Positions 9,828 to 53,328 of a DNA stretch of 64,000 nucleotides are shown piece by piece. The stretch is from Gracilaria domingensis (lineage: Eukaryota > Rhodophyta > Florideophyceae > Gracilariales > Gracilariaceae), in NCBI GenBank assembly GCA_022539475.1, contig VCMS01000111.1:97188-161187 (forward strand), read 5' to 3'. A model generated the notes under the pieces. It was not told the DNA's origin, searched no databases, and was given only the letters and a program-made list of their open reading frames with translations. A program made the translations under genes and the position numbers. Position 1 is the first letter of the stretch; each line of letters begins with the position of its first letter.

Positions 9828-10881
9828 TTGAGGACTTCTTCAATGCAGAGCTGAGAAGGAAAGAAACGGACGCAAAAAGTCAGCTTAATCTTTTAAGTAC
9901 AGAGAGCAATGATTTCGTTGGGAACTTCTGCGAAACTGAGTTCTCTGACGAGTGCTGTTGACCTTAAATAGTAGACGCTTTGAGCAGGCCAGCAGTTCCA
10001 CATATGTGCACGCGGTAAATCTTGTACAGGCGGAAGAATCAAAGAACATACACTTATATCCATGAAGTCTGGACGTACAGACAGGTCCAGTGGTTCAACG
10101 GATGAACGCTACCTTTTTAGCAGCTATTCTTCCTTCCTTTAAACCTGATAAAGCAGAATAAGTTCATGGCTGTCATGTATTACAATGTGTGCAGAAACAA
10201 GACAACCAGAAACAAGTGAGAAGTAGATGGGTCCAGACGTTGGTATGATGACAAGCTTAGTTCTGAGTGGCAAGCAGAAGTTGACTCAAGCTGTTGCAGA
10301 CGATGATATTGTAGCGTTTCTCAATCAGCAACGGTGAGCAAGGGATCACGTGAGTCGTCGGTCGACGAAGAAATGTGACTAGACGACAGACTGGAATGCC
10401 GGACTTTCGGATATGTTGCTTTCAGCACAGGCCACATCATCCTTAGAGGCCCAAGTCAGGCCGGAACCGAGCATTGAGGTGATAATACCTCACCATGAGA
10501 GCTCAAAACAAACTTCCCATTACAGTGCATGACGTTATAACGATGCCATTGGCTTTGACGTCTGTAATTCTGCGACACGTACGGGTCCCGTGTTGCCATG
10601 GTTGGCTGGCTGCCAACGTACGCTACCCGTGGTGGGACAAGGGTTCACGGGTGCGAAGCGCGAGATGACGACCTCAAAAGCACATCAAGATAGACGCATC
10701 TCGTAGATACGGCTACAAGCAACATGAAGCCTTTTGACCCCCTTCCCAGGGGGAAATTCATTGTTAGAACTTGAATAGAAGAATGTGTTCGATCGTCCAA
10801 CTTTTCTACTGCAGATGCTAATTCTGTAACAGAATTGTGACGCGCTGTTTCCACAAGCTCTGGCCGAATAGGATCACAACC
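9828..10881. promoter_or_regulatory. Divergent intergenic region between ICS-MenD and menB
   Basis: About 1.05 kb with no convincing gene, flanked by the start codons of two enzymes of the same pathway on opposite strands. The arrangement is compatible with a shared, bidirectional control region. No specific element was identified. Confidence 0.45.
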
Positions 10882-11826
10882 ATGCCCTCGTCCCAGCAAT
10901 TGCCGTTCAAACCGCCTCCGGCTTTGCAGCAACCAACGCCTCTCATCCGATCAGCATGTTCTTGGCAAACCGTGCCGATCGATGCGCTCCCCCACTTGCA
11001 AGACATACGATTCGAAAAGTCCCCTGATGGCATTGCCAAAATCACCATTGTAAGACCCGAAGTACACAATGCCTTCCGCCCGCGCACATTACTAGAAATG
11101 GAGCACGCATTTCGATGTATCAGAGACACACCATCAATCCGTGCAGTGATACTCACTGGCGAGGGGCACCGTGCGTTCTGCTCCGGCGGAGATCAATCTG
11201 CTCGAGGTCATGGCGGATATGTAGGGGCTGATGGAATTCCTCGCTTAGCCGTCCTTGATCTGCATATCATGATGCGCCGTTTACCGAAAGTGGTGATTGC
11301 TATGGTGGCTGGGTATGCAATCGGAGGCGGTCATATTCTGCACATGTTGTGCGATTTGACAATAGCAGCGGAGAACGCCCGTTTTGGACAATCGGGCCCA
11401 AAAGTGGGAAGTTTTGATGGTGGTTACGGAAGTTCTTACATGGCACGCATCGTTGGCCAGAAGAAAGCTCGCGAGATATGGTTCTTATGTCGGCAGTATG
11501 GCGCAGAAGAAGCACTGAAAATGGGATTGGTTAATACTGTTGTGCCTGTGCAAGACCTGGAAATAGAGACGGTCAAATGGTGTCGGGAGATTCTACAAAA
11601 AAGCCCGACCGCAATTGCGTGTTTGAAGGCTGCCTTGAATGCCGACGGCGATGGACATGCGGGCTTGAGTCAGCTGGCCGGTGAAACAACTCGCCTTTTC
11701 TATCAAAGTGACGAAGGAAAGGAGGGAAGGAATGCATTCTTGGAGAAGCGAAACCCCCTTTTCGAAAAGTTTTCCGGAAGTGGTGACGATATGGAACATG
11801 TACAACCACGTCGCGCTCATCTATGA
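10882..11826 (+). CDS. menB: 1,4-dihydroxy-2-naphthoyl-CoA synthase (naphthoate synthase, MenB)
   Basis: Crotonase-fold enzyme that cyclises o-succinylbenzoyl-CoA to DHNA-CoA. 314 residues from the ATG at 10882; a GTG 45 bases upstream is in frame but unlikely to be used in a eukaryote. The family is unmistakable: [13 protein letters not shown] (~58-70), [11 protein letters not shown] (~99-109), [18 protein letters not shown] (~142-159), [18 protein letters not shown] (~169-186, containing the active-site Ser-x-Asp-Gly-Gly segment), and the C-terminal [12 protein letters not shown]. Two features are odd. There is a Pro/Gln-rich N-terminal extension of ~37 residues. A 17-residue C-terminal extension ends in Ala-His-Leu, which fits the PTS1 peroxisomal consensus [SAC][KRH][LM]. 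Plant MenB is peroxisomal (through PTS2), so peroxisomal import is plausible here, though a plastid location is not excluded. Confidence 0.95.
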
Positions 11827-33100: not shown

Positions 33101-33954
33101 TGTGGTGCAATCCCCCGAGTTGGTAAACAAGAGCCGCGTCGCGGAAAGCACACCGACAGGGTGTTCGGAACCTGCTCTCTATAGAGGTAGATGCAGCACT
33201 AGAACCCTCTGATGGGGCCAGCGCGATGCCGGATGTAAGTCCGGGTGGCCCCGATCTGACCGTGCAGTCAGAGGTGAAGGAGAAGAATCGGCGTAGGTAT
33301 CCGGTTGTTCCAGCGAGCCACAGCGGGTGAAGATATCCAGCCTAACGGTATAGAGTGACAGGGCATCAGCAAACGAGCCGCACTGCAGAGCACTGACTCG
33401 TGATAGACGGGAATAAGTCCCGAGACTAGTGGGCAAAATACTGTATAATAGGGCAGAGAAACGAGAGCCATATGACGGAAATAATAACAAAGAAACAACA
33501 AAAGATGCCGTAACGACGGTCTAGAACTCTTTAGTGGTAAAAGTCGGATGTCTAGCCCGGAATTGTGGCGGCTTGTCCGATTAGGGACGAAAAACGTTCA
33601 CAAGCGGCAAGAAAGCCAGAGCCAGAAGCCTCCTTGAGGTTTACTTCCCGTACAGTGGCGGCAAGTGCCGCCACTTATATACGGCACTTGAAAATATCAA
33701 TTGAAATATCTAACTATCCGGCGATGCCGGCCAATACACTACAGGTGTGCACCCGTGGCAGGCTCGCCACGGCACACCCGCTATCAGGCCAACTTGGCAC
33801 ACGTGTGCAGAAATACTACCCTTCCTAGGCATATCCCAAAAAATGGGCAATCGCCACAATTCCTTCTCATAAATGGGGTGGCGAAGCCGGTAACGGATCA
33901 ACCCTATATGAAAAGCATTAAGGTGCATCCCCACAGAGGGCGTTTTGCTCTACA
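33101..33954. mobile_element. Solo LTR (854 bp) inserted in the element 2 transposase
   Basis: Begins TGTGGTGCAATCCCC and ends TTTTGCTCTACA, closely resembling the termini of the 981-bp LTRs at 34904 and 46980 (TGTAGAGCAAAACCCC ... TTTTGCTCTACA). The flanks are aacat (33096-33100) and gacat (33955-33959), a 5-bp target duplication with one mismatch. Removing the LTR and one duplication (859 bases) restores the transposase frame exactly. A TATATA sequence lies at about 33676. No internal genes are present, so it is read as the product of LTR-LTR recombination. Confidence 0.82.
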
Positions 33955-34903
33955 GACATTGCCACCATTTTTCATCTTTCAGGGTACGAACCAAATGAAT
34001 CGCTGGTGCGACCCTCTCTCGCCAGAAATATTTAAAGATGAATGCGGTGTGCCGCATTGGCTGGCAATTGAAAATTGGCTGCCTGAAGGAAGCTTCGTGG
34101 CTGGCAATGAAAAAGGTTCCTTGACTATGGAGTTCATACCATTCGTCATTGATCACATAGTGCACCACGCGAAAGGCATTGTCGACAAGAAGAAAATTCT
34201 TCTTATGCTAGACGGCCACAAATCTAGGAACGGGTATCTGTGGTTGAAGAAGGCAAAGGCAGCAAACGTTGAGGTCATCATTAGCCCCGCAAACACCTCC
34301 CATTTCTTCCAGGCATACGACCAATCCATTAATAAACGGTACAAAGAGACCGTCCGCGCAACGTATGACTTACTCAACAAGACGGCATTCGTTGACTTCG
34401 GAGAATACGGCATTAAATTCAAATTGGGAACAGCCCGGTATCGGGCTCTGACGAAGAGTGTTGTAGAAGAGGCTTTTGACAAAGTTGGGATGTGGCCCAT
34501 TGACTTCAGGTTTCTCACGTGGACTCAGGCCAAATGGAGAGGAGCATCCTCTTCTGCTTGTCATACAAAGCGACAATCTTAACGTATTGCCGATAAGAAC
34601 AAATGGAATGATGTAATGTCGATTGTTAACAAACGGATGGGTATGTATTACAAAATGGTTTCCGTTCGAGACATTCTTCATCAGTATCAGGGCCGCATTG
34701 CGGACCTTTTGTTGCGCCATACCGCAACCAAGAAGAGCATATGGAAGAATCGAGCGCAACACGTTGACCGCACAACAATCCAAAGGGGTGCGCCAGCAGT
34801 TTACGCTACCCACGGTGAGGTCATTAGGAGACGGGAAGAGCAGGAGAGGAAGGCCAAGGAAGAAGATCTAGAGAAAGCCAAACGCAAGATTGAGGCAGCA
34901 GAA
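33955..34903 (+). pseudogene. Element 2 transposase, middle piece
   Basis: Carries the second and third catalytic acidic residues, in LLMLDGHKSRNG and FFQAYDQSINKRYK, homologous to element 1. An in-frame TAA at 34580 interrupts it. After that the frame continues through a Lys/Glu-rich coiled-coil tail up to the chromovirus insertion at 34904. Confidence 0.85.
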
Positions 34904-35884
34904 TGCAGAGCAAAACCCCAGCGATGGGATCGTCTCTCAAGGCGTTCGAGTCCTTGCTCTCTAGACGAGGTGAACTCAGTGGTGAGCCCTCTGAACACGG
35001 ATAGTGCGGGTGTAAGACCGCCCGTGGTACGGGATATACCTACGGAGGTTGATGGCTGAACGGGCTTGATCCAGGAATCCGGCGAAAAGCGACGGAATGG
35101 TTGAGGAGAGAGGTACCGTAGAGCGGTGTAAGCCCTAGGTAAAAGGGGGAAAAGGAAGGGAGACCAAAGGAGGAAAAGAGAGGAATGCCGCGCCGGGACG
35201 TGCGGCAAGCCGCAACAGACCTGGCGCCGGGAGACGACGATGTGTATTAAGCCCACGAGGCACAACTCTATACAGAGACGGAAACGCTACCAATTGTGGT
35301 GAAAGCAGTACAACTGCACAGTAAAAGAAACAGAAAGTCCGAAGACACGAAATAAATAAGCCCGGAGGCAAAGCCACAATGGTCAGTATTGTCTGAGTGA
35401 TCCCGAGGGATGAATCCAATCCGTACCGTACGCGGTGACCCTCCTGAGGGAGTTGTACACTTCGCGCAGGCGAACTTGGTTCAGAGCCGAACTCGGTTAC
35501 CCTTTACTGAAGGAGGAGGTGACCGGGAGGTCACCTCTTATATCGTAACCGATAAATTAGTTAAACTAAATTAAATAATCTAGTGCACACCTAAGCAGGT
35601 CCATACACGTGGTGCACGTGACAACCCGCGGCAGCGGCCAGTAAAATATCCGACAATCATAACAAGACATGTGTGAACACACCCATTCCTACACACGCGT
35701 ACACGCAACCAATACTCATCTGCGCCACGTCATGGCCGACCCCTCAGGGTGCCATACCGCAATACTGCCAAAACGTATCCCATCCGCGGGCCAATACTCA
35801 TACCTTCCGAGTACCCGGAATCATCCTTATGTGGGGTTTATGAAATCCTTCCCCGTGTACCGGGCGAGCACGTTTTGCTCTACA
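34904..35884 (-). repeat. 3' LTR of the chromovirus (element sense), 981 bp
   Basis: Same length as the copy at 46980-47960, differing at roughly 14 positions seen by eye (about 1.4 %). On the plus strand it begins TGCAGAGCAAAACCCC and ends TTTTGCTCTACA. A CTTATATCG sequence may be the LTR TATA element (about 35536). Confidence 0.92.
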
Positions 35885-35900
35885 TATCCCCCTCCTTAGC
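35885..35900 (-). promoter_or_regulatory. Polypurine tract of the chromovirus
   Basis: On the minus strand the bases immediately upstream of the 3' LTR read AAGGAGGGGGATA. This is a purine run at the position where plus-strand DNA synthesis is primed. Confidence 0.75.
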
Positions 35901-35948
35901 GCAGGAAACATCCGGTTTGCAAGCGGAGACTCATCAGCGAGCGAGTAT

Positions 35949-36923
35949 TTGTGGGTCAAACTCGGAAGAGTGAAACCCAACAGACTGTCCGAAGGTCCGC
36001 TCTCGTGAGAGATGGCAGACCAGTGACAGAGCCCTCTGTACCACCGTAACTCGGTTGTAAGGCCGAAGAGGCAACTGGCTATACCTACAGAGGTGCTAGG
36101 CCACGTCGTGAGGAAACGATGAGAAACTCCAGAAATGGGGTGGTATTGGCAACGATGAAACACGACCAACGACAGGTGTAGTCCCGAGAGGGAAAGCAAC
36201 AGAAAACAACCACCAAACAACACCCACACGCGACGGGTAGGGCCTCCTCGGCACTGTGCCCGCAGCGGGGCGAGATCCTCCAACGGTAATGCACGGGTTT
36301 CCGTAAACACGGCAAAACTCTATACAGAGTCGGATCACTTCGTAATCTAGTCCTATACCTCCTCGGTACGACCCTCAGGTCCCGACATCAACGACAGATG
36401 TTCCTCAAAGGTACCGAGAGGGTAGGACCACCGTAACCAGACGTGGCTATACTCGCGAGAGTGATAACCCACGTAGGCGGTTGGCGCCAGAGCCTCACTA
36501 GTGTAGAGTCCACTCAGGAGAGCGCTACTCGACAAAGAGTTCACTTAGAAGTGCTCGGGTTGACTTTACAAAGGTGCTCGCGACGACGAGGTCGAGCTCA
36601 CCTAAGTAGGTCTAAACTAACTATGTACACGTGGTGCACACCCCCAGGGGTCCGTACACGTGGCTAGCCCAGTGTCAGGCACCTCAGGTGCACTACCTAT
36701 TGTCCCGTAATATGCACACACACGGTGGTGTAGTACACGCGTCCATCTAGCGGTATTGGCCAGCAATGGCAACCCTGATTACAGGTAACTGTGGGAAAGC
36801 CATTCCAAAAGTAACCGCCAAAATTGGGTCCAACTCATAACTCTTCGAGTGCATCCTCGTATCACTCCCCTGAGTATATGAGGCGCATCATCCTGATAAC
36901 CACGCAAATTGCGTTGCTCTACA
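35949..36923. mobile_element. Second solo LTR (~975 bp), nested in the chromovirus
   Basis: Ends GTTGCTCTACA, like the other LTRs, and begins (T)TGTGGGTCAAACTCGG, similar to the other LTR starts. Internal landmarks of the 981-bp LTR ('gagccctctg', 'tatacctac.gagg') recur in the same order, but overall divergence is high, so this is a related family. It is flanked by agtat on both sides (35944-35948 and 36924-36928), a perfect 5-bp duplication. Confidence 0.75.
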
Positions 36924-36944
36924 AGTATATAAGCGCCGTCCACC

Positions 36945-38759
36945 ATGGACATATCCGAGATTCCGGCTCCTCGTCACAACGAGACACACGCGCAAGCGCA
37001 CTCAAGTTCTCTGCACTCAGACGATTCAGTACTTGAAGTTTCCTCCGCGATCGAAGATTCGATGAACCCTCACCAGGGCGACGAGCAGCACTCCCAAGCC
37101 GGGGCTCCGCACGTTTCGGGTCCCGCAACTCCTGCGACAGGATGTCTCGGAGGTTTCGCCTCCGCTCCTCTGCTTCAGAGTCAACATCACACGACTACAA
37201 CGAACCCGGTCGACGTCGCGGCGTGGAATTCCGCTCAGGCGGTGCCCTTGCTGGCGACTCCAGCTGGCTGGATAGCGCGTGAATCGCTCCTTGTTCAAGA
37301 TCCGACTACCGGAAGAAGCTGGGCCTATTCCAGAGCGCCCTGGTTTCACCCGACAGCGGTTCGCAACAGTGCGTTGATGGATTCATAAACCGAGAACGGT
37401 ATGCTGCCTGGCGGCCTACACCGAGATATGGTCAATTCCTGGGATTGGAGACACCGCGTGGCGGTCGCACCTCACGTGTTGTCACGGAAACGGCGCGGCC
37501 GTGGATACAAAACGCTAGATAAAGCGCGCGCGGCTATGGCGCGATTGGCATACTTTCGGAAGGACCGAGCCTCGTTCCCCGAGAGGATTCCCGAGTCATA
37601 CGGGTTCGACCTTTCTCGGTTCCGAACTTACGGAGAGATCAAGTATGGCGCGAACCTCTTGGACTGCCAAGCGGCGGAAAACTTCCCGGAGGCGATGCCG
37701 GCGGACATTCTGCTGTTCAGCAGGCCGGTCCTGCGAGCGGAGTTCCGATATCTACATCGCCCTTCGAGAGAGGGAAGCTTCTTCGACCGACTTCGAAACG
37801 AACGCAAATGGCGATCCCGGTTCGGGTATCTGATTCCACACCAGAACATGGAGGTTGAACGTTTGCGTCCGGACGCACTAGCGGGTCGATTCGCTCCACT
37901 CCCATCGTGGTGGGCTCACTATGAGGTACCACGCGGGTGTTTCCCGGAATTGCCTCCGTGCATCTCCTATGTGGGGTTACGCATGATTGCGAATCCGCAC
38001 TCGGAGTATTGGATGCTCTTCATCGCCGAATAGGCCGCTCGTGTTGCCGCGTTTATGCTATGGGAAGCATACGACCAGAACCGTGTTTGGTATTTGCCTC
38101 CGAGGTTACGGAATGTGATTAAATCACTGGACTTATACACCGCGCTCGGTTCGGACGACAACGTCAGCGAGGTCATCAGCCTTATCGATCTCATCGATTC
38201 CATTGATTGGAGTACCGTTCCGGCGGGAAACGTCCCCAACGGCACTCGTTTGCACTACGACCGTTCGCCAGGGCGAAGACATCTGGGTGCCGGTGACTTC
38301 GTGTATTACGATCCCTGGGAGGGAGTTACCGTCCCGAAGGAGCGGGCTCTCGTCCTACGCAGACTTCCTCGAGTGGTTCCGAGCGATCACCCTATTGGGT
38401 TCATGTTTTCCGACAACTATTACTCCGTAGCAGAGGAGGACGATCCAATGATGGATGATACTGTGGAAGACCCGGCAACGAGAGGTCCGTCGGCGGCTTC
38501 CGCAGGAGTTCCGGTTGCCGGAGGGGCGGCGGCGCCAGTTGCTCCTATCGGTTGGGGCGTGGGCCCTTCGCAGGGGAATATTGACCCTCGCGTGATAGCG
38601 ATGCGCAACCAACTCCTCGGACTTTAGGTGCCGGTTCCACCGGATATGTACGACCTCGGCCAGCTGTAGGCATTGGGCGCGCAGGCTTTCGCGAGTCAGC
38701 CTCCCCAAGCGGGGCCTTCCAACCCTGGAGGTGCCGGTCCTTCGACAGGATGGCAGTGA
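36945..38759 (+). pseudogene. Antisense ORF of the chromovirus, ~605 codons, unrecognised protein
   Basis: Lies opposite to gag-pol, between the chromodomain and the 3' LTR. A single plus-strand frame runs from an ATG in a CCACCATGG context to TGA at 38757. It is broken only by stops at 37386 (TAA), 38031, 38625 and 38667 (all TAG), with no frameshift. The N-terminal ~90 codons are Ser/His/Glu-rich. A basic KRRGRGYK segment and a large Trp/Tyr/Arg-rich globular-looking part follow. The C-terminus is Pro/Gly/Gln-rich. A TATATAA lies 13 bases before the ATG. I recognise no domain; it is not a copy of gag or pol. Antisense frames in this position are known from some plant Ty3/Gypsy elements, without established function. 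Confidence 0.7.
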
Positions 38760-39149
38760 TCCCAACGGTGGGTTCCTTCCATGATGGGCTGTGGTAGGCT
38801 CTGCGACCAACGCACTCCGCAATAGCTAGCGGTACAACTTCTCCTTAGAATAAAATCGACTTCGATATCAGTTCCTTCATAACCGGATTACGGTTCAATG
38901 CCTTTCGCGTACCATCGTTCCAATACGGTTCTCCATTACGCGTGTAGCTTCACGACATGTTCACATGGACCGCTAGACGGTAGTTCGCTTCTTTCCATTA
39001 AATCGGCGTCCGTTAGACGGAAATCCCTCTTTCTTCTTTCATCCCTTCGATACTTCCTTCCGTAGGAACAACCCAAACTTCTTGGTAATACCATCAATTA
39101 CTCTCCCACAAGTGGGCCCGTCGGTTCACCTCGCGGCACAGTAGTACTT

Positions 39150-39383
39150 TCACCCTACCTGGGCTGCGTCGAAGTTTGGAGGTAGCGGTAAGCGCTTGCG
39201 CCGGTAGTAGGCGAGAACCTTCGATCGAGGCAGATGTTCGATCGGCTCGAAAGTATCCTCCTCAGGGGAGTATCCGTACCAACGGACTTGGTATTCAGTG
39301 TCCCCATCGGGGTTCACGACGTGACTCACGATGCGTTCGATAACGAATTCTTGTGGGAACACTTCCCGTTCGCGGGACTCCAT
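39150..39383 (-). CDS. Chromodomain at the C-terminus of the chromovirus integrase
   Basis: ~75 residues with EFVIERIVSHVV, YQVRWYGYSPEEDTFEP and IEHLPRSK: the aromatic cage and W-x-G-Y...W/F-E-P pattern of chromodomains that steer integration to methylated chromatin. It is in the same frame as the integrase frame ending at 40098 but separated from it by stops. Confidence 0.85.
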   Translation of the reverse strand: MESREREVFPQEFVIERIVSHVVNPDGDTEYQVRWYGYSPEEDTFEPIEHLPRSKVLAYYRRKRLPLPPNFDAAQVG

Positions 39384-40097
39384 GGCGTATGGGTCACTCC
39401 TGCTGACTCAGTTTCACCTGGAGAGGTTCTGTAGCTGCCTCAAATCACGCAAGTGAAGCTTTCCAAGCGTTGGAGACGGGCTTACTTCCGCGGTTTTCCA
39501 CGCATGCCGCCGTGGCGGCCGTACTGTAACTTGCGTCCTACGCGTCCTATCCTCGAGCTAGAGAGATAGTTGCAAAGCTCTCGATCAGACGAGTCCAACG
39601 GTATCACGTTATTCGACGAGAGTCGAGAGACTGGCAAACGGTAGTACTTCCGGTTGACGAATCTCCCGGCCTTCACGGGGATAACCGTTTCGGTGACGGA
39701 GGTGCGTACGGCACTCCCTTGGCAGGGCGGCGGTTCACCCGGTCCACGGGGCTTGTGCCAAGAGCTCTGATTGGCTCTACGCCACAGATTGGCGACCAAG
39801 ACAATCCTGCGCGTGCCGTGCTCGGCCATCCGTTCGCGAAAGGTCGCCGACCGCTCATTAGGGCTTTTCACGTTGTAACGTGCGTCGCGTGGCACGCGCC
39901 TGGTTCTGTGGCCTCGTGTCACAAAGATTGCACTTCTTGCAGTCGTGGCGGAGTCCCAAGTCTCCACACGCGATGTGGGTCATACTGTAGAGTGTCGGCT
40001 TCCAAGAAAGCGTTAAAAATCCCACAAGGAAATCCATAATGAGTGGTAGTACTCAGCACAACTCGTTCACGAGGCTTCCCATTTCAGGGTTGCAATG

Positions 40098-42094
40098 CTA
40101 TTCTTCCGCGTGCAGCGGCTGGTCCGCATCAGCGGAAACCGTTTTCACAGTTCGGCTATGCTTCTCAGCGCGGATACGCGAGTTCAAGCGGTTAGAGGTC
40201 CCAGAGAGGGTAGCTGCTTCTGCGGCAGCGTCGCGCCTCTCGCGGGCACGTTCCGTGGTAACGGAGACCGATACGGCGGAGTCCTTACGGTTGGGGTGCG
40301 ACGATGCAACTTTGCCACTAGATTCTCCCACGGGAGCGACTGGATTTTCAGTGTGTATCACATTTCCCGTGGTTGGGGAACCGGGCGACACCGGAGCGTC
40401 AGTGCCATTCGCAGCAGCTGCGGTATCCTCCCCCTCCTTAGGTGGCGCCACGGGCTCCATCAGGAGATGGGATGGGGGGGTTACTCTTGTAAATGCCGGT
40501 GCAGAGTCGTTGGAAGTCTTCCAAGTAGTAGGAAGTTCAGTTCTGTGGTCAGAAGTACCTACTGTAGGTAGATCAATTAATCCTCGATTCGGGTGCGGAA
40601 GAATCGCCGGGCGCGACGGTAGTGTAGCGGCTGTTGACGGTTCTGTCTCCTGTTGAGGATCCCCTGATTGGGTATTGGTTAAGGTGGGCCCGGTGGCGCT
40701 GGGTGGCGTTGGGGCGGGCACAACGCGGTCGCGCGAGATTCGTTCATGACGTCCGTCAATGTCGAGTACGACGGTATCCGGATTGACGGAAATGACGCGA
40801 TATGGTCCATCAGCGATGGGAGAGAGATTATGTCTCTTTTCCTTGTCAGGATTATAATACTCCTTACGAAGGAAGACAAAGCTGTTGGGCTCTACCACCA
40901 CTGGAGTACCGCGAATTCGGCGATCGAAATTACGCTTGTACGTAAGCTGTGCCTTTTCCATGGCCTTCCGGGCTACCGTTACCATCTTGGTTAACCAATT
41001 TTTCCAGGTGTCCTTGTACATCCGTGGTGACGGGAAAGACGCTAGCGTCGGTTGTGATTCGATTGCTACCGGTGGCGGTATCCTCGAAAGAACGAGTTCA
41101 AACGGCGAAAGCTTCGTTACCCGATGCACCTGGGTGTTATACGCGTACGTAATAGCATCGGTGTACAAGTTCCAATCCTTTGGGTGATCCGCAACATAGG
41201 ATCGTAATGCATTAAGCATTGTACGATTAAATCGTTCTACCTGCCCATTACACTGGGGATGATAGGTTTTTGTAAACAAATTCTTGACATCCAAGATACG
41301 GTATACGTCCATAAAGAACTTTGAGGCAAACTGCGAGCCATTGTCTGAAAGCAGATTGACGGGTGGCCCGTAAGTGAAGACCCAATGCGTCACAAATGCT
41401 TGTGCAACTGCTGCTGCAGTGATCCGTTTCAACGGAACCGTTCGCATTAGCTTTGTAAACCTGTCCGTGATAACCAGGAGGTACCTGTGACCGCGTGCGG
41501 TTCGAACTAATTCGCCCAGGATGTCGATAGCGACGACTCTAAAGGAGCGCGGGCTGGAAACAGTGTCATCGACTTCGAATTTTGTCGGAGTTTGACGTTG
41601 TTCTTGGCGCATTCCGTGCATGAACGGCGTACTGCGTAGCAGAAGAATGCCATAGCTGGTTAATAAAAGTCTCTTCGGAGAGTTAGATACAACTTCCTGC
41701 CACCAGGGTGTCCCCCAATCTTTGCATAGTGGGATATATGGAGAACCCTCCATTGTAGGGAGTGTGGAACCACAATTTGAGGGCGTGGTCCAACAATCCT
41801 AACAAGGAATCCCTGATCGTTGGTTAGAAAGGGTATCTGGAATCCCCCGTTGAGTCGGGCCCTTATCTGAGTACAGAAAGGATCCCCGTGTTGTTCACGT
41901 ATTACCTCTTCAGCGGTAATGTGTTCAAAAGAGCCAGGCGGTGGCTCCACCATTTCTGCGGCGAGAATGTCGTCACAGACGTCGTCCGTAATTTCGGAGT
42001 CTTCCTCCCAGTCTTCCACCAAGAAGCATGGTATGTCGTCGTCGTCGACAGGTTCTGCTTCTCCAGACGTTCCTAAGCTGGAAAGCGCATCAGC
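40098..42094 (-). pseudogene. Chromovirus integrase (zinc finger, DDE core, C-terminal domain)
   Basis: An H-H-C-C zinc finger (HISHYAKIGGHPGG ... CTECAKNN) lies at about 41750-41590, interrupted by a TAA at 41660 where the family has the Trp of 'FYWP'. A frame change near 41545 follows. The catalytic core then runs from VAIDILGEL (Asp) through LLSDNGSQFASKFF (Asp) to HPQCNGQVERFNRT (Glu), i.e. D,D35E. The C-terminal part has a GPYRVISV-type motif and a long Pro/Ser/Thr-rich tail ending at 40098. Confidence 0.85.
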
Positions 42095-43678
42095 CTACAT
42101 ATTCAGGGTACCCCATTTGTACCGGACATCAAAATCAAATTCCGATAGACGGAGACGCCAACGCATAAGGCGACCCGACGGCTCGGAGATCTCCATAAGC
42201 CAGCGGAGAGCCGAATGATCCATATGTACCTGAAAATAGGTTCCCGTGAGATAGGGTCTTAAGGTAGACAGCGCCCAAACGACGGCGAGACACTCTTTCT
42301 CAGAAACTGAGTCATTACGCTCATGCACGTTGAATGAACGGGAGCAGTATCCAACTGGACGTTGCTCGCCTTCCTTCGAGACTTGAAACAAGGCACACCC
42401 CACTTGGTGCTCACTGGAATCAGTATCAACTTCATATGGAAGCCATGGAGTGGGCAACGCCAAAATCAGCGGAGACGTAACAGCGTCGATTAACGATGAA
42501 AAGGCGGATGCTTCCGCATCGCCGAATGGTTCCAGTTTAACTGGCTGTCCTTTCCGGAGAAGAGAGTTGAGAGGAGCTGCAGTATCAGCAAAATTCGGGA
42601 CCAACCGACGGTAGACATTACACAAACCGAGAAATGATCGGAGTTCCGTCTGAGTTGTCGGATGTTTCGCTTCCTTCAGCGACTTCACCCTCACCTCGTC
42701 GACCGAGAGTTTCCCTCGGCGGATAATGTGGCCCAGGTATTTCACAGAGTCGGTAAAGAATTCGCATTTCTTGAGCTTGAAGGTAACACCTGCGTCACGC
42801 AGAACCTGCATCACTTCCCTCACTTGGGACATATGTTCATCCATATTGTTGGAAAATACGACAATGTCGTCCAAGTACACAAGACAAGACTTCCACTTGA
42901 ATCTGGCCAACAGAATGTCAATCGCGAGCTGAAACGTAGCGGTAGCATTCGTTAGCCCGAGGGGCATCCGTTTGAAACGGTACAGTCCTTGGTGACATAC
43001 AAACGCGGTCTTGTCGCGATCTTCCTTTCGAATTGGAACCTGCCAGTAACCCCAATTGGCGTCAGGGGCGGTAAATACTCTGGCGCTTCCCAGCGAGTCG
43101 ATGTACTCATCCATCCGTGGAATCGTATACACGTCTTTGACGGTAACGGCGTTAAGTCGCCTGTAATTGGTACAAAAACGCCACGATCCATCCGACTTCG
43201 GAACAAGTACAACGGGCGATGCCCATGACGACTGAGCTGGCTCAATTACGTCGGCTCGTAGCATCTTCTCGACTTGAGACTTTTCTTCTTCCCGCGCGTT
43301 CGGGCATGCCCGATACGGGTGTTGCGCGATTGGGCGAGTATCTGGGAGCAGATCAATACGGTGCTCCGTAATTCCAATTGTTCCAAGGGAATCGTCGCAC
43401 ATGGGAGTAAATTCTCTGAGCATGTCTGGCAACTTCTCGCGATGAGACGCTGGGACATGGTCCAGATTCAACTTCTCTAATTCCTCAACAGGATTCGTCT
43501 GTTCTGTGCCAGGGGGTAGCGCTGCTTTAACCGAAATAAACGCTCGTTCGTGGCCCGAACCAACTAGGTTCACCTCTTCAGTAGCAACTGCTTCCGGTAC
43601 GGCGGAGTTTCCCTTTCTGGAGGAATCCGACGAAACGGAATTTTCAGGACGCACCTCCCCCTCCTTAGCTTCGGGCAC
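42095..43678 (-). CDS. Chromovirus reverse transcriptase and RNase H
   Basis: ~527 codons uninterrupted. RT motifs: SSWASPVVLVPKSDGSWRFC, the FTAPDANWGYWQV block with the first catalytic Asp, FKRMPLGLTNATATFQ and the catalytic SCLVYLDDIVVFS. RNase H motifs: PYEVDTDSSEHQVGCAL, VSEKECLAVVWAL and FQVHMDHSALRWL. The frame ends at a TAG (42095) inside the '..N..ADALS' motif that joins RNase H to integrase, so this is a disabling stop rather than a natural end. There are matches to every Ty3/Gypsy RT block. Confidence 0.9.
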   Translation of the reverse strand: MPEAKEGEVRPENSVSSDSSRKGNSAVPEAVATEEVNLVGSGHERAFISVKAALPPGTEQTNPVEELEKLNLDHVPASHREKLPDMLREFTPMCDDSLGTIGITEHRIDLLPDTRPIAQHPYRACPNAREEEKSQVEKMLRADVIEPAQSSWASPVVLVPKSDGSWRFCTNYRRLNAVTVKDVYTIPRMDEYIDSLGSARVFTAPDANWGYWQVPIRKEDRDKTAFVCHQGLYRFKRMPLGLTNATATFQLAIDILLARFKWKSCLVYLDDIVVFSNNMDEHMSQVREVMQVLRDAGVTFKLKKCEFFTDSVKYLGHIIRRGKLSVDEVRVKSLKEAKHPTTQTELRSFLGLCNVYRRLVPNFADTAAPLNSLLRKGQPVKLEPFGDAEASAFSSLIDAVTSPLILALPTPWLPYEVDTDSSEHQVGCALFQVSKEGEQRPVGYCSRSFNVHERNDSVSEKECLAVVWALSTLRPYLTGTYFQVHMDHSALRWLMEISEPSGRLMRWRLRLSEFDFDVRYKWGTLNM

Positions 43679-44548
43679 ACCAAGAACATCGGACGTTGGG
43701 ACTCTCGTCTGTACGAGCGCCTTCGGATACGGCAGACCCGAACGGCAGACCCGAACCCGGTACCTGGTGTTTGACTAGCCACTGAGTGGTTTTGCCAAAG
43801 TTGGCAACCAGTACCTTGAAAGGTTCATCGGGCTCGATAGAAACAACACCATTAGCTAAAGCGAGCTGTCGCTGATCGTAGAACGATGAAGACGGTTGAA
43901 CTAGTCGAATTCCATGTTGTTTGGAGACGCACTGCACCCACACCTGGGATTCCGGCGGGATTGAAACGGATTTCGCTATGCAAAGCTTTGTCGATTTCGG
44001 ATCCACGTTTGGAACCTCCTGAGCCACGGTAATGGGACGCGCTTCCAGATTGCGCGGCTCAACGGCTTCCGAACGATCGGAATGGTTGTACCGTCTTCTA
44101 TTTCCACGGTTTTCGCCCTTGGGCGTATCGCTTCGACAAAGCGGTCGCAAAAATCACAACCGAGTATAACCGGTGCAGCGAGTGATTCGCAGACAATAAA
44201 TTCAAGTTTCACCACGTAGGTGCCAAGTCTCACTGTGAGAGTTAAGTAACCAACCGTGCGCAACGGGTTGTTGTTCGCGTCAGCGATATCCAAGCCTGGA
44301 CCATAGCGAACGAATTCCTGAAGTGCCGGGGGCACTAACGAAGAGTGAATGAGATTGGGCGTAGCGCCCGTGCCTAACACAGACAGTTGACGAACCATAA
44401 ACTGGTGTGATAAGCCGAGGTAGGCGTAAACCTTATAATTCCTTTTGGCCATCACAAGGACTCTATCCGGGTTACGGAAATTTCGGGACCGTACCCACGG
44501 ACGACGGAGAGCCGTTAAAATCTCTGAGTCCACGTCAGATTGAGCCAT
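43665..44548 (-). pseudogene. Chromovirus aspartic protease region with lost catalytic Asp
   Basis: Starts at an ATG (44548). The protease signature reads SVLGTGATPNLI, where the family has Asp before T/S-G-A; the second hallmark, PVILGCDFCDRF, is intact. The frame then changes near 44070, and again near the start of the RT frame. It lies in the same frame as gag, 117 bases after the gag TAA. Confidence 0.75.
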
Positions 44549-44665
44549 CTTCCTCGTAAGGATCTTTCTTTTTAAGGAAAGTGACCTGGGAGCGAAGCGG
44601 CGGCGCCTCGGGCGTCTCCGACTTTGGCTCAGGAGACGCCCCTCCCGCAGGGGGAACTCCCAAGT

Positions 44666-46772
44666 TTAGTTTTTCTGGACGGGGTTGGCCGGCGACGGCA
44701 AACTCTGCTCAGAGTGGGAAACAGAATTCCCGGGTTCGGGGTTGGTCACAGTTACCTGTTCAGCCTGGTTCCGAGGTTGCTCAGTTCGAACGTTCTGTCC
44801 TGTAACAGGATTGCCAAACTTGGCCCTTTGCTCTTCATAATTCTTACTCGGAACACGAGCACGGTCAGCTGGTGACAAGGACTCATACCACCCGATAATT
44901 TTCGGTAACTCCCGAGCGGGCAACATGCACACAGGTGCAATATGACCGGGTCGGTAACAAATATGACAGATGGTCGTCACCGACTTATCGAAAGATCGAT
45001 TACCATCTGGCGGTCGTTGCGGTTGCGCCTTCACCCATCCTGGGCGTGAGAAACGGCTGGCTTTGGTCGCGCAAGCCAGTGGAGCGGCCTGTACCCGTGT
45101 TACTCGCATATAGAGTGCGGGGTCACCTTCCGAGGTCGGAGTCGACGACGACGGAATGTCAGAAGACCCGTACGAATCGGGAGCACTTCCAACGAAGTGG
45201 ACGTTATCCAGATCGGGGTTCACGGAGTTTCCACGTTCCAAGGAAAGAGATGGAGATGACTCGTTGACGAGCAACGCCATTGAGCGACGGGGTTTCGGCG
45301 GGCGCCGAGCACGGAGGACTTCGCCTTCAGCCTGGGCGTACTGGACCAATTCCAGATACGTAATCTTACGTTTCTCTTTGCGATATCGCGCCACCAAAGC
45401 CTTGATAGAAGGTTCCAACCCATCCACGAACATCGTGCATGTCTCCTGAGCGTAGTACACATTTCCACAGCGATGAAACGCTTTGTTCAGCCGAGTTGAG
45501 TAAACCGTTTCGGTCTCTTCAGTCTTTTGTTTAGTATCTCGCAGAGCGAGCGTTGCGTTGTGAATCGCGCTTCCTGTTGCATAGGACCTCAGGAGGTATT
45601 GAACCGCTTCCGGCCATCAGCTGACACCTCCTTCAGATGCACGGGACGACCCTCGGACCGAGTTAAACTGATCTTCAGCCATCCCTGACAGAAAATAGGG
45701 TAAAACGAGAAACGCTTGCGCCTCGCTCATACCGAGAATGTCGGCTTCCTGCACAAAGCGGGCCAGGAAGTCCAGTACCAGAATTGGATCTTCGCCATCT
45801 AATTTCTTCGTAAAGACGATATTCAGTCTTCTGATGTGGTCCTTCACCTTACCGGTGCTTCACGAGGTGCGACTTGACGATGAATCGTCCAATCGGTAAT
45901 AACGATACGACAACAGCTTTCTGTAGAGAAGATTCGTTGGTTTCAACTCCTTGAGTCCAAGATGACCTATACCTTTCTCGCGAGAGCGAATCACTCCTTG
46001 AGTGGCATATGTCGCCTTCGACTTCGTCCCGCGGGATCTACTCCCATACCGTTCTCGGTCTTCCTCACTGTCCGAAGAACTGGGTGAAGTAGATTTCGCA
46101 GAGCGAACGCTAGAATTCGAACTAGACGAATCCGACTCGTAACGGAGTTCCTTTTTGGATCTTCGATTTCCGTGATACGGGGCTTGGCGTGCCGAGCGCT
46201 TAGAGGCTTCTTCCTTAACATTCTTCGCATCAGATGCGTTATCCATCCGAATGATCTCTTCAAGAGTAGACAACCGAGTGGTTAGGGGATCGATTTCAGT
46301 TCGATGCTCCTGAATAGAGGAATGGTAAGCTTGAACAAAAGCGGCTGGTGCACCCAGACTTTCCAAAATGGAATTCACGTCTTGACGTAGGACACGAATT
46401 TCATTGGTCGGATCTCCGATTTCAGCTTGGTCAAGCTTCCGTCTGAGATACTACAGATCCTCGAACAACGAGTTTTGCGCGAGCTGACTGACACGCAGTT
46501 GAGCCTTGAGGTACGAGTATCCAGGGGTTTCAACTACATCGTCTGGTCTCTCCGTGGCCGGAGTACCCGTAACGGGCGGAGCTCCTGTCGTAGAAGCGGC
46601 CATCGGACCCGACGTGACTGACGAGGCTCTCCGGGGTTCCGGGATCTGTTCATTGTCAGGCGACCTTGCAGGTACGGAGGCGCGAGGACGCGGAGGCCTA
46701 GGTGGAGGCACACCACTTTCTCTGGCCACACCGTTTCCAGAGTTCGGCGCAGGTGGCGCCATACCGGGCCAC
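44666..46772 (-). pseudogene. Chromovirus gag with three in-frame stops
   Basis: A single minus-strand frame from an ATG near 46772 to TAA at 44666, broken by TAG (46451), TGA (45860) and TGA (45617), with no frameshift. The N-terminal part is Pro/Thr-rich. A Ser/Arg-rich region with a coiled coil follows (about 46380-45900). A capsid-like helical segment (about 45840-45400) includes PILVLDFLARFVQEADI. The nucleocapsid end has a CX2CX4HX4C zinc knuckle, CHICYRPGHIAPVC (about 44980-44935). Confidence 0.85.
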
Positions 46773-46958
46773 GGTGTACCGAACTGCGGTAAGGTCAACT
46801 TAAAAACGAGAGGTCTCGATACTCCAAAGAGTAAGTAACGAACAACAAGTAAAACACTCTAGAGAGTCCACAGTTCCACAGCAGCTTCCCAAAAACCAAC
46901 TGATCATTAATCGTAAGACTCCTCGACAAGAACGAGAACGAAAGAAAGATTCCAGCCC

Positions 46959-46977
46959 GTTCTAGGTCGGGACACCA
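46959..46977 (-). promoter_or_regulatory. Putative tRNA primer-binding site of the chromovirus
   Basis: Two bases after the 5' LTR (minus sense) the sequence reads TGGTGTCCCGACCTAGAAC. TGG complements the CCA end of a tRNA. The tRNA was not identified. Confidence 0.6.
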
Positions 46978-46979
46978 CT

Positions 46980-47960
46980 TGTAGAGCAAAACCCCAGCGA
47001 TGGGATCGTCTCTCAAGGCGTTCGAGTCCTTGCCCTCTAGACGAGGTGAACTCAGTGGTGAGCCCTCCGAACACGGATAGTGCGGGTGTAAGACCGCCCG
47101 TGGTACGGGATATACCTACGGAGGTTGATGGCTGAACGGGCCTGATCCAGGAATCCGGCGAAAAGCGACGGAATGGTTGAGGAGGGAGGTACCGTAGAGC
47201 GGTGTAAGCCCTAGGTAAAAGGGGGAAAAGGAAGGGAGACCAAAGGAGGAAAAGAGAGGAATGCCGCGGCGGGACGTGCGGCAAGCCGCAACAGACCTGG
47301 CGCCGGGAGACGACGATGTGTATTAAGCCCACGAGGCACAACTCTATACAGAGACGGAAACGCTACCAATTGTGGTGAAAGCAGTACAACTGCACAGTAG
47401 AAGAAACAGAAAGTCCGAAGACACGAAATAAATAAGCCCGGAGGCAAAGCCACAATGGTCAGTATTGCCTGAGTGATCCCGAGGGATGAATCCAATCCGT
47501 ACCGTACGCAGTGACCCTTCTGAGGGAGTTGTACACTTCGCGCAGGCGAACTTGGTTCAGAGCCGAACTCGGTTACCCTTTACTGAAGGAGGAGGTGACC
47601 GGGAGGTCACCTCTTATATCGTAACCGATAAATTAGTTAAACTAAATTAAATAATCTAGTGCACACCTAAGCAGGTCCATACACGTGGTGCACGTGACAA
47701 CCCGCGGCAGCGGCCAGTAAAATATCCGAAAATCATAACAAGACATGTGTGAACACACCCATTCCTACACACGCGTACACGCGACCAATACTCATCTGCG
47801 CCACGTCATGGCCGACCCCTCAGGGTGCCATACCGCAATACTGCCAAAAAGTATCCCATCCGCGGGCCAATACTCATACCTTCCGAGTACCCGGAATCAT
47901 CCTTATGTGGGGTTTATGAAATCCTTCCCCGTGTACCGGGCGAGCACGTTTTGTTCTACA
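46980..47960 (-). repeat. 5' LTR of the chromovirus (element sense), 981 bp
   Basis: Near-identical partner of 34904-35884. On the plus strand it begins TGTAGAGCAAAACCCC and ends TTTTGTTCTACA. Confidence 0.92.
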
Positions 47961-48475
47961 CAGAAAAGCGTCAGCGCGAGTCGGAGCGAAAGGAAGCAGT
48001 TGCTTTTGAGCGCCAGAAAAAGCAAGAAGAGAAAGCCAAGCTCCGTGCTGAGGCTGCCGTGCTGCGCGAGATCAAAAAGAAAGAAGTAGCGAAGCGCAAA
48101 GCTGCTTCCGCTCTCGAGTGTCAAGGCAAGAAAGACGAACGCGAGCGTAAGGCGTTGCAGCGCAAGAATAAGAAGCAAAGAACTTCTGGTAGTGTTGGTT
48201 CTACTTCAGTTGTGGTGAATGTTCCTTCAGGGGCTTTGTTAAACTCTACCAGCAGCGAAGAGGAGGAGGCGAATACGAAGTTCATCTGTGAAAATACTGG
48301 CGGCATCGAGAAGCAGAGAGAAGCGGTAGTGGTGGACGATCAAAGTACGGAAGAGCGGGCGATTGCATGCAGCCTTCTAGACCTGCAAAACATGCCGAAG
48401 AGCGTCTTGAGCACTCACCATGTCGGCTTGGTGGAGTCCGTAGGGGACCAAGGTGTTTTGGATGACGACAAATGA
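47961..48475 (+). pseudogene. Element 2 transposase, C-terminal piece
   Basis: Resumes the Lys/Glu-rich coiled coil interrupted at 34903 (EKRQRESERKEAVAF...), in the frame predicted by removing the 13,062 inserted bases. It ends at TGA 48473 after a Ser/Glu-rich tail. Confidence 0.82.
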
Positions 48476-50094: not shown

Positions 50095-50146
50095 GTTCCT
50101 CATGTAGGGAACCATGCCCAGATGCATGGTTCCCTACTTGAGGAAC
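50095..50146. repeat. Hairpin, 23-bp stem with one mismatch
   Basis: The arm 50095-50117 pairs with 50124-50146 around a 6-base loop (CCAGAT). It sits at the left edge of a repeat array. Confidence 0.9.
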
Positions 50147-51010
50147 CTGCACCTGTAACTCGTGAGCTACGTACGCATCAAAACTCATTTACCTGTATGC
50201 CCAAGCAGAAAGTATCCATAAGTTAGTCAATGCTCGGTTGGATACATTTGAAATGCAATGGAACGTACCATTGATAAACTAAAACAGAAACGTTGCCCTA
50301 GAAAATTCGAGGGACCTAGTAAGCCGCAATAGGAAGAAGAAGAAGGAAAGGGATCGGTTAGATTACCAGCAATCCATTCATCGTAAAACGCGAAAGATGT
50401 CGAAGCGAAAACTCCCGAGCAACGACACCAAGAATGCCCATGCAGCAAACATACCGCAATTCCCCCTAAAAACGTGCACCTGCAACTCGTGAGCAACGTC
50501 CGCATCAAAAGTCATTTACCTGTATACGTAAGCAGAAAGTATCCATAAGTTAGTCAATGCTCCATTGGATACATTTGAAATGCGATGGAACGTACCATTG
50601 ATAGTGCAAAACAGAAACGTTGCGCTAGAAAACTCGACGGACCTAGTAAATCGCAAAAGGAAGAAGAAGAAGAAAAGGGATCGGTTAGACTACCAGCAAT
50701 CCATTCATCGTAAAACGCGAAAGGTGTCGAAGCGAGAACTCACAAGCAACGACACTAAGAATGCCCATGCAGTAAACATACCGCAAGATGCGATAAACGA
50801 GAATGCAGCCTATGTCCCAACCAAGTACCAGAATCGCCTATCCCGAACAGTGAGGCAGGTAAACGACCAATTCCATTTCCTCTTTCAAGATCAAGTTAGT
50901 CAATGCTCCGTTGGATACATTTGAAATGCGATGGAACGTACCATTGATAAAGCAAAACAGAAACGATGCGCTAGAGAAGTCGAGGGACCTAGTAACTCGC
51001 GAAAGTAACC
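50147..51010 (+). repeat. Direct repeat array: two ~325-bp copies and a partial third
   Basis: Copy 1 (about 50148-50460) and copy 2 (about 50475-50790) share a long similar text, starting at GCACCTG(T/C)AACTCGTGAG and including GTTAGTCAATGCTC, GGATACATTTGAAATGC and ATCCATTCATCGTAAAACGC. A partial copy 3 (about 50894-51010) repeats the central ~115 bases. Copies differ by scattered substitutions. A Lys-rich open frame crosses copy 2, but the frame is not conserved between copies. Confidence 0.82.
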
Positions 51011-51688: not shown

Positions 51689-53328
51689 ATGATCTACTAC
51701 TGTACACATAAGAAGCGTGGGTGCCCGTTCGTTACTCGCCGAGGAGTGCTATCTCTTCAACAGCATGTTAACCGTTGCCCGTTTCGTCTGAAAGCCGCGC
51801 TGGAAGATGAAAATAGGCGGCCCATTCGGAGAAGCAAGCGTCTCAAGCTTTCCGCGCCCGCGCCCGCATCTTCCGAAACGGTCACTGCCCCTTGTCGCCT
51901 TCCCGAGCCTCCGGTGTCCGAGGACAGCGTTGACCCCACTCCGTGCGCCCCTCTCATTCCGGACACTTCGCATTGTGTTTCTCCTTCCCCGGGTCCCGCG
52001 GCATTAGAGCCAGAACACGGAAGCAGTCCACGCCCAGTGCCTTCTGAGGAGGCCCTCGGTGATTTGCATATGGATTATCTCACGGTTTGTCTGGCTTCAG
52101 TAGCTTCCAACCTTGGTCATCGTGAAGCAGACGAGCTAATTGGGCTACTTCGCGACCCGCGATTCTCGCAAAAGCGATTCAACGAGACCATAACAAGTTC
52201 TAAGCGCTGTACAGAACTGAAGAACGCCATTTTCGAACGATACGCCTCAAAAGACGGTTTCAATCGAAGAACTGTCTCGCCAGAAGGATGTAAGTTCAGC
52301 GCCACCCTCTACACGAGAGACCCCCGTTCAGACACTTGTGAAACAGCTCCAGTTGGCTAACAACGAAAACACATTCTTCCACCATATACCTCAGACCCAC
52401 TCCCCGAAAATATCTCACCCCATGTCCGGCTCTCTCGCAAGAGACGCCACCTCGGAACTTAAGGAAATGGTCATGCGCTCTTTGGATAGTAGAATAGTGT
52501 GGTACTCCCAAGAAATAAGTTACAGTGAATCTTTCGTAGGTATTCTGCATGTATACACCGATAAGTCTTCAACAACTCTAAAGCAAACATCGGTTACCGC
52601 CTGTACTCTTCACCTCATATTTCTCAACTTCTCCGACGAGCTACGCCGTAAGCGCATCCGTGATGACCTCACAGTAGTGGCATACTTTCCTACAACACTG
52701 GTACAGGTTTTCGCATCTGAAGCAGACGCAATGCCATTCGTTTCTAGCAAGTCTCTACGCGATTCCAGGATGCACATCCTTCAAGAATCTCTTCGTCAAG
52801 TCCTGTAGCAAATTATACATCTAATGCAAAAAGGTTTTCAGTTCATCGGCGAAGACGCAGTATATCGAGTGTGCCATCCTCAGCAAGTTTTTGTGCGGAT
52901 ATTCTGAGGCTAAGGACATTCTGTCTACTCTTCATAGGAGCCAAACGGAAAGCCCTTGTCATAGATGCAAAGCCCCTCCCTCATCTTTAGGCGGTAATGT
53001 TCTTACGTCATTCACTGGACTCTCCCAAAACCACACTAAAAGCGTCAGAAAGACATACTCAGTTATTCTCGAATATGCAAAGAAAGGCGAAGGAGAAAGA
53101 AACTTACGTCGTACAAGGGAGACGAGATCCAAGTCGGATATTTTTATGCGTTCCAATTCCATATCTCTCATTCTCTCGTCCATCAAAATCGCCTTGACCG
53201 TAAGATTCATCCAGGGGTTATTTCTATGCAGTCTGTTCGAAACAAGGAGAGCTCGCTTCGAACAGTTACGCAACTTGCATCTCGGCATATTGAAACTGAT
53301 TAATATTCCAGAAATCGAGAGACTGTAG
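51689..53328 (+). pseudogene. Plavaka-like DNA transposase, decayed
   Basis: Three plus-strand pieces in different frames. Piece 1 (51689-52360) starts with a zinc finger-like CPFVTRRG ... LQQHVNRCPF, then a basic RRSKRLK patch and Pro/Ser-rich sequence. Piece 2 (about 52320-52808) has ILHVYTDKSSTTL ... LNFSDELRRKRIRDDL ... AYFPTT, the pattern I associate with Plavaka-type transposases ('YaDKT..', 'N....iRrk.s....laylPt'). Piece 3 (52891-53328) starts FLCGYSEAKDIL followed by a CHRCKAPPSSL Cys pair, in the expected order. Frameshifts lie near 52300 and 52850. A GTAAGT at 52290 hints at an intron, but no acceptor restores the frame. Assignment is by remembered family pattern only. Confidence 0.6.

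Follow-up and report, generated by a model that had tools for sequence, protein, structure and literature searches.

A dead antisense gene copy in a chromodomain Ty3/gypsy element of the red alga Gracilaria domingensis and its conserved relatives in at least seven element families

A reading frame of 604 codons that runs against the gag-pol of an LTR retrotransposon raises the question whether it has been a gene and, if so, what kind of protein it encoded. Such a frame, here called the antisense additional ORF (aORF), is found in the window, i.e., the whole stretch of 64,000 nucleotides of Gracilaria domingensis DNA that was analysed (contig VCMS01000111.1, positions 97,188 to 161,187). With four in-frame stops, at 37386, 38031, 38625 and 38667, the window copy is dead, and we regard it as very likely that the aORF has been a real protein-coding gene formerly under selection. 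The fuller reading, which sees in it the dead copy of a selected accessory gene of a chromodomain-carrying Ty3/gypsy lineage and includes a regulatory role, is one that we hold to be probable.

The aORF is situated between pol and the 3' LTR in a chromodomain-carrying Ty3/gypsy element, which is about 13 kb long, spans 34904-47960 and carries gag-pol on the minus strand. The features of the element and of the aORF are the following.

34899..34903, unstranded, left target-site duplication CAGAA, 5 bp
34904..35884, minus strand, 3' LTR relative to pol, 981 bp
35885..35899, minus strand, polypurine tract adjoining the 3' LTR, with the same motif at the equivalent place in other families
35950..36923, unstranded, family E solo LTR inserted into the element, 974 bp, 98.5% identical to the LTR of locus L028 and 97.6% to that of L027, AGTAT on both sides
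36926..36932, plus strand, TATATAA, starting 19 nt ahead of the aORF ATG
36945..38759, plus strand, aORF of 604 codons with a terminal TGA, a dead family A copy
38849..38854, plus strand, AATAAA, possible poly(A) signal 3' of the aORF, also present in the A and B copies with 3' flank displayed, absent from D and E
39180..39365, minus strand, chromodomain (PF00385, E 6e-13)
40098..41753, minus strand, integrase frame of 551 codons (PF00665, E 1e-9; Ty3 Gag-Pol, E 5e-20)
42095..43678, minus strand, reverse transcriptase (RT)-RNase H frame of 527 codons (PF00078, E 6e-33; PF17917, E 3e-32; Ty3 RT, E 4e-71)
44666..46378, minus strand, fragmented gag region (44666-45460 and 45860-46378) that includes a CCHC-like motif (Pfam knuckle E 0.056, under the cut-off)
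46965..46977, minus strand, candidate primer-binding site, starting TGG two bases from the 5' LTR, with no tRNA matched
46980..47960, minus strand, 5' LTR relative to pol, 981 bp
47961..47965, unstranded, right target-site duplication CAGAA, 5 bp

The class of chromovirus has been assigned from the domains and their order, as the element shows the Ty3-like succession of RT-RNase H and integrase with the chromodomain behind the integrase. The closest solved structure is that of Ty3 for both RT (E 4e-71) and integrase (E 5e-20), and of 45 sequences searched, other families included, 34 have a chromodomain match, several of the 45 ending before its position. The gag region, RT-RNase H, integrase and chromodomain are found in separate frames on the minus strand, in agreement with the broken pol of the preliminary description, and the two LTRs differ by 14 mismatches. 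A frame for a DDE_1 transposase (33701-34582) adjoins the element, and a Glu/Lys/Arg-rich frame stops near the insertion while a similar one picks up again beyond it. Therefore, the retroelement probably sits inside an older DNA transposon.

Several further features have been seen elsewhere in the window. A minus-strand frame of 1271 codons (6012-9827) with chorismate-binding and thiamine-pyrophosphate enzyme domains, which we take to be a PHYLLO-like MenF-MenD fusion, stands divergent from a plus-strand frame of the enoyl-CoA hydratase family (10837-11826) that could be MenB, and the two are a possible phylloquinone gene pair. Between 17080 and 24743, a KN homeobox frame stands behind a 2026-codon frame with a TamB domain. 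At 50144-51008 there are repeats of about 330 bp, in which two copies of 300 bp match at 91% and a part of 116 bp occurs three times. A frame with a cysteine-rich start, starting YYCTHKKRGCPFVTRRG, is present both at 51689-52360 (plus strand) and at another locus of the genome (L041, 586-2034, minus strand), and thus belongs to another repeat family.

The preliminary description had reported an antisense frame of about 605 codons that contains four stops and no frameshift and is faced by short frames only. This picture has been confirmed in each respect: the frame comprises 604 codons and a TGA with its stops at the positions located above, the alignment to the intact relative L002 is gapless over all 604 codons, and the longest overlapping frame on the opposite strand (ATG, GTG or TTG start) measures 155 codons (38355-38822). 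Over 36945-38759, the plus-strand frames hold 5 (the terminal one included), 12 and 10 stops, and the minus-strand frames 16, 21 and 18.

The frame had also been said to fill the space from chromodomain to 3' LTR. Its position has stood up, but the space beside the LTR holds a solo LTR of family E that the preliminary description overlooked, inserted 5' of the aORF between the polypurine tract and the ATG. The present upstream region of the aORF is therefore not the original one, and family E has been active after the window element inserted. In five other copies (L002, L018, L021, L024 and L027), the aORF ATG was counted by eye to lie 69-80 nt from the LTR end. As for the promoter hint taken earlier from TATATAA and a Kozak context, the motif is present; as a TATA box for the aORF ATG it has been rejected since a distance of 19 nt is too short, leaving the hint weak. 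TATA-like motifs 10-20 nt before the ATG were also seen in L018, L021 and L024 and recur in several families, E not among them. On the strand of the aORF, the polypurine tract becomes a pyrimidine tract, which in most copies continues with TTAG, 55-70 nt before the ATG, and resembles a splice acceptor, the AG of which is missing in L021; one might speculate about an intron in an antisense 5' leader.

Intact copies elsewhere, for which a search had been proposed, have been found in large number in the same genome, with the same antisense frame in related elements. Relatives were searched in the Gracilaria domingensis genome contigs (77.9 Mb in 680 contigs), where a 210-residue piece of the aORF gave 1011 candidate places, the best 150 of which were scored, all with E 1e-57 or better; queries from two further families gave the same picture. 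In an unscored first look, the aORF candidates numbered 1011-1096 depending on the query, compared with about 2300 for integrase, and other pol families may lack the aORF. At least seven aORF families, from A (that of the window) to G, can be told apart by identity and tree. Uninterrupted frames of 600-700 codons are common among the matches listed, and 78 of the 93 full-length matches listed for family E at an identity of at least 93% have no stop in a 233-residue core.

The arrangement recurs as well: within this one genome, the aORF of at least seven families lies antisense to pol and downstream of the integrase. This holds for all 20 ten-kb loci inspected (families A-E). Judged by coordinates, among the 150 integrase matches to the window copy at least 118 are followed by an antisense aORF within 9 kb (median 3.3 kb), and among the 47 closest to family D (D/G) at least 34 (median 3.5 kb), copies of F and G being included among the matches so followed; most copies of a family thus carry it. 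For the other 32 and 13, no aORF is among the matches listed, and some of them lie near contig ends. Three such misses were inspected, of which L043 has a broken aORF, L042 about 130 N-terminal residues only, and L041 none. Locus L042 (contig C382) belongs to a set of five similar integrase copies with no aORF listed, the others being on C275, C329 (two) and C181; L042 is the one inspected, and the copy on C181 is close to a contig end. The set is a possible deletion subfamily that has lost the aORF core and yet multiplied. An element of this kind that seems to have multiplied speaks for an aORF that acts in trans or is dispensable, and against a strict need for it in cis.

The aORF has been under purifying selection while the elements multiplied. 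Pairwise dN/dS was determined by the method of Nei and Gojobori, and a ratio near 1 across copies had been named beforehand as speaking against a selected frame. Within families, the ratio reaches 0.27-0.98 in A (60 of 78 pairs shown; mean dN 0.041, mean dS 0.077) and 0.41-1.18 where defined in C, the highest value coming from one pair. As evolution of active elements is here mixed with decay after insertion, the within-family ratios of A and C do not by themselves show selection. Between subfamilies and families, the ratio is well below 1, at 0.13-0.27: 0.13-0.14 between D subfamilies (dS 0.58-0.65), 0.26-0.27 within G (dS 0.32-0.33), 0.13-0.15 for A-B pairs (dS about 1.5) and 0.24 for A-C (dS 1.6), whereas pairs with higher dS (0.15-0.31 where defined), being saturated, were set aside. 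For the same A-B pairs, RT gives 0.10-0.13, and by this yardstick the aORF is conserved about as well as the other element proteins. Its protein evolves faster than RT, since its A-B dN (0.19-0.22) is roughly double the RT value (0.09-0.11). The low ratios between lineages and the retention of related antisense frames bear out the earlier proposal that the frame was under selection until recently.

A count of shared and private variants, for which no dS is needed, was made on 11 family A rows with a flank of 431 bp, excluding L001 (the window), L004 (identical to L003), L007 (partial) and L009 (the same place as L002). Private variants, which have mostly arisen after insertion, reach densities of 168 per kb (ORF) and 142 per kb (flank) and have no significant preference among codon positions (94/97/114, p 0.32). 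Of the shared variants, mostly from before insertion, the ORF has 3.6-fold fewer per kb than the flank (45 vs. 162; Fisher p 9e-12), and those in the ORF favour third positions (23/19/39, p 0.016; flank 24/21/25). The family A copies were best matches or chosen for long open frames and are not a random sample, which can lower the number of stops and indels but should not create a difference between shared and private variants. Consequently, the indel counts (1 in the ORF, 22, partly inherited, in the flank) have not been taken as evidence.

At the family level, the tree of the aORF agrees with that of RT. The two family-level trees are compatible, and the distances over 18 loci are correlated with a Mantel r of 0.86, which none of 2000 permutations reached. 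Inside family A, the window copy compared with the place of L002/L009 shows a dS of 0.09 in the aORF (36945-38759) and of 0.28 in RT (42095-43678), a mismatch that suggests recombination between elements of this family.

The protein was assigned to no recognised family in the preliminary description, and this assessment has held: no entry of Pfam, PDB, PHROGs or NCBIfam passes the threshold. The best Pfam value for pieces of the window, four intact copies and 23 aORF rows is E 0.041, under the cut-off; the PDB gave no match to one aORF sequence and one match at E 0.81 to an aORF profile; PHROGs (two proteins) and NCBIfam (three proteins) gave none. Relatives outside the host genome were sought in viral, bacterial and archaeal contigs, and no relative was found in the viral contigs (aORF alignment and one protein) or in the genome contigs of bacteria and archaea (alignment). 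As far as these sequence comparisons reach, the aORF is new as a protein family, and its host group and its place on a chromodomain element are new for such a gene. Its core, rich in Trp, Tyr and Phe as well as in Arg, was measured in five proteins from five families, where its length is constant at 403-406 residues, and is framed by ends of a disordered type. Where present, the N-terminus is alike in A, C, D and E and carries Pro-Arg or Pro-Cys around residue 10. Most aORF rows share a second Met with Asn or Asp directly behind it, and the C-terminus often reads GPSxxGGAGPSxG. An envelope-like ORF was considered and rejected. The usual transmembrane cut-off for the 19-residue Kyte-Doolittle mean is 1.6, and the highest value in five aORF proteins is 1.54, i.e., there is no clearly transmembrane-like stretch, which makes the aORF unlike an envelope; its orientation is wrong as well.

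By analogy, we favour a regulator over an additional structural protein. The aORF would encode an accessory regulatory protein made from an antisense mRNA, a reading that draws on the same layout in plant antisense additional ORFs with a suspected regulatory role. If such a regulator acted in trans, a subfamily devoid of the core could still multiply.

The strongest competitor, though an unlikely one, is a structural product that is made from the antisense gene and enters the particle or the pre-integration complex. The constant core length, the aromatic and Arg-rich core with disordered-type ends, and a constraint near that of pol would all suit a protein of this kind. However, gag is in its usual place, and in a copy of family E a separate ORF at the gag position has 714 codons and a CCHC-like motif, so that the aORF is unlikely to replace Gag; in this ORF, no Pfam capsid was recognised and the PDB nucleocapsid match is weak (E 0.1). 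Structural genes normally stand on the sense strand, thereby sharing the genomic RNA, whereas the aORF is antisense. Nor has a structural homologue been found, although the models are too poor to judge by: two AlphaFold predictions of the aORF protein have mean pLDDT values of 36 and 48, and a Foldseek search with a low-confidence model gave nothing below E 5.8 in the PDB and E 0.97 in BFVD, where neither matches nor their absence are telling.

A captured host gene, as suggested earlier, or the remnant of another nested element would explain the antisense orientation and the lack of relatives in the libraries searched, but we consider such an origin improbable. Seven families have the aORF in common, and its tree is compatible with that of RT; any capture must therefore predate the split of these families. 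Among the best 150 matches listed, a search confined to the host genome, no host relative of the aORF appears, and the host genome and library searches have lent the suggestion no support. Still harder to sustain is the proposal that the antisense RNA itself is functional, e.g., in silencing of the element, with an incidental reading frame. Antisense RNAs of this type are discussed for plant elements in excerpts of PMC7264820, but the constraint on the aORF acts at the codon level (dN/dS of 0.13-0.27 between subfamilies and families), and its shared variants are in excess at third positions; as the sole function an antisense RNA is thus unlikely, while a role in addition to the protein may exist. 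A chance open frame or artefact, for which the four stops of the window copy might speak, is refuted by conservation, by selection and by a first-order Markov simulation in which the best of six frames had five stops or fewer in 9 of 5000 trials.

The proposed accessory regulator has its closest counterparts among the aORF-3R genes of plant LTR retrotransposons, such as GENE23 of maize Grande and those of rice RIRE2 and bean PvRetro13, and in Boty of the fungus Botrytis, as far as excerpts of PMC7264820 describe them. According to the same excerpts, the plant genes share with that of the alga the place between pol and the 3' LTR and the orientation, occur in most copies of a family, are conserved like other element proteins, and have no clear database relatives (PMC7264820). 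The portions consulted of PMC7264820 and PMC11963269 describe antisense ORFs in flowering plants and one fungal element and give their function as unknown; a regulatory role is suspected for the plant ones, and reports for Grande include a nuclear protein and an antisense transcript, those for Retand weak expression. The algal gene differs in its host group and is likened to the plant genes by layout and description; its element carries a chromodomain. Retand, in contrast, belongs to a non-chromovirus lineage of flowering plants, and its antisense ORFs carry a TRP28 domain (PF04195). At an E limit of 1, none of the 23 aORF rows matched this family, and a search of the host genome with PF04195 gave zero matches, as did the controls in the same search.

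HBZ of HTLV-1 is a bZIP protein; with the same limit of E 1, the 23 aORF rows gave no Pfam match to bZIP. HBZ and related retroviral genes lie antisense near the 3' LTR like the aORF, according to excerpts of PMC11963269 and PMC7264820, and the analogy is one of layout only. Among the titles and abstract beginnings listed from open-licence literature, none describes an antisense ORF of this kind in red algae or chromoviruses. As a tentative extension, which we put forward with less than even confidence, the aORF could be an ancient antisense gene that defines a clade of red algal chromodomain elements; its protein, of a new fold, would act as a regulator in trans and have an origin separate from that of the antisense genes in plant Retand and Grande and in HTLV; antisense regulators at the 3' LTR would then be a recurrent solution of LTR retroelements. 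To the antisense ORFs of LTR retrotransposons, Gracilaria domingensis adds a protein family of its own, with numerous recent copies that have uninterrupted frames and with several diverged families in one compact genome, and with selection seen directly at the protein level the function of such ORFs becomes testable. The kind of gene is known; its protein family, its chromodomain context and its host group are new.
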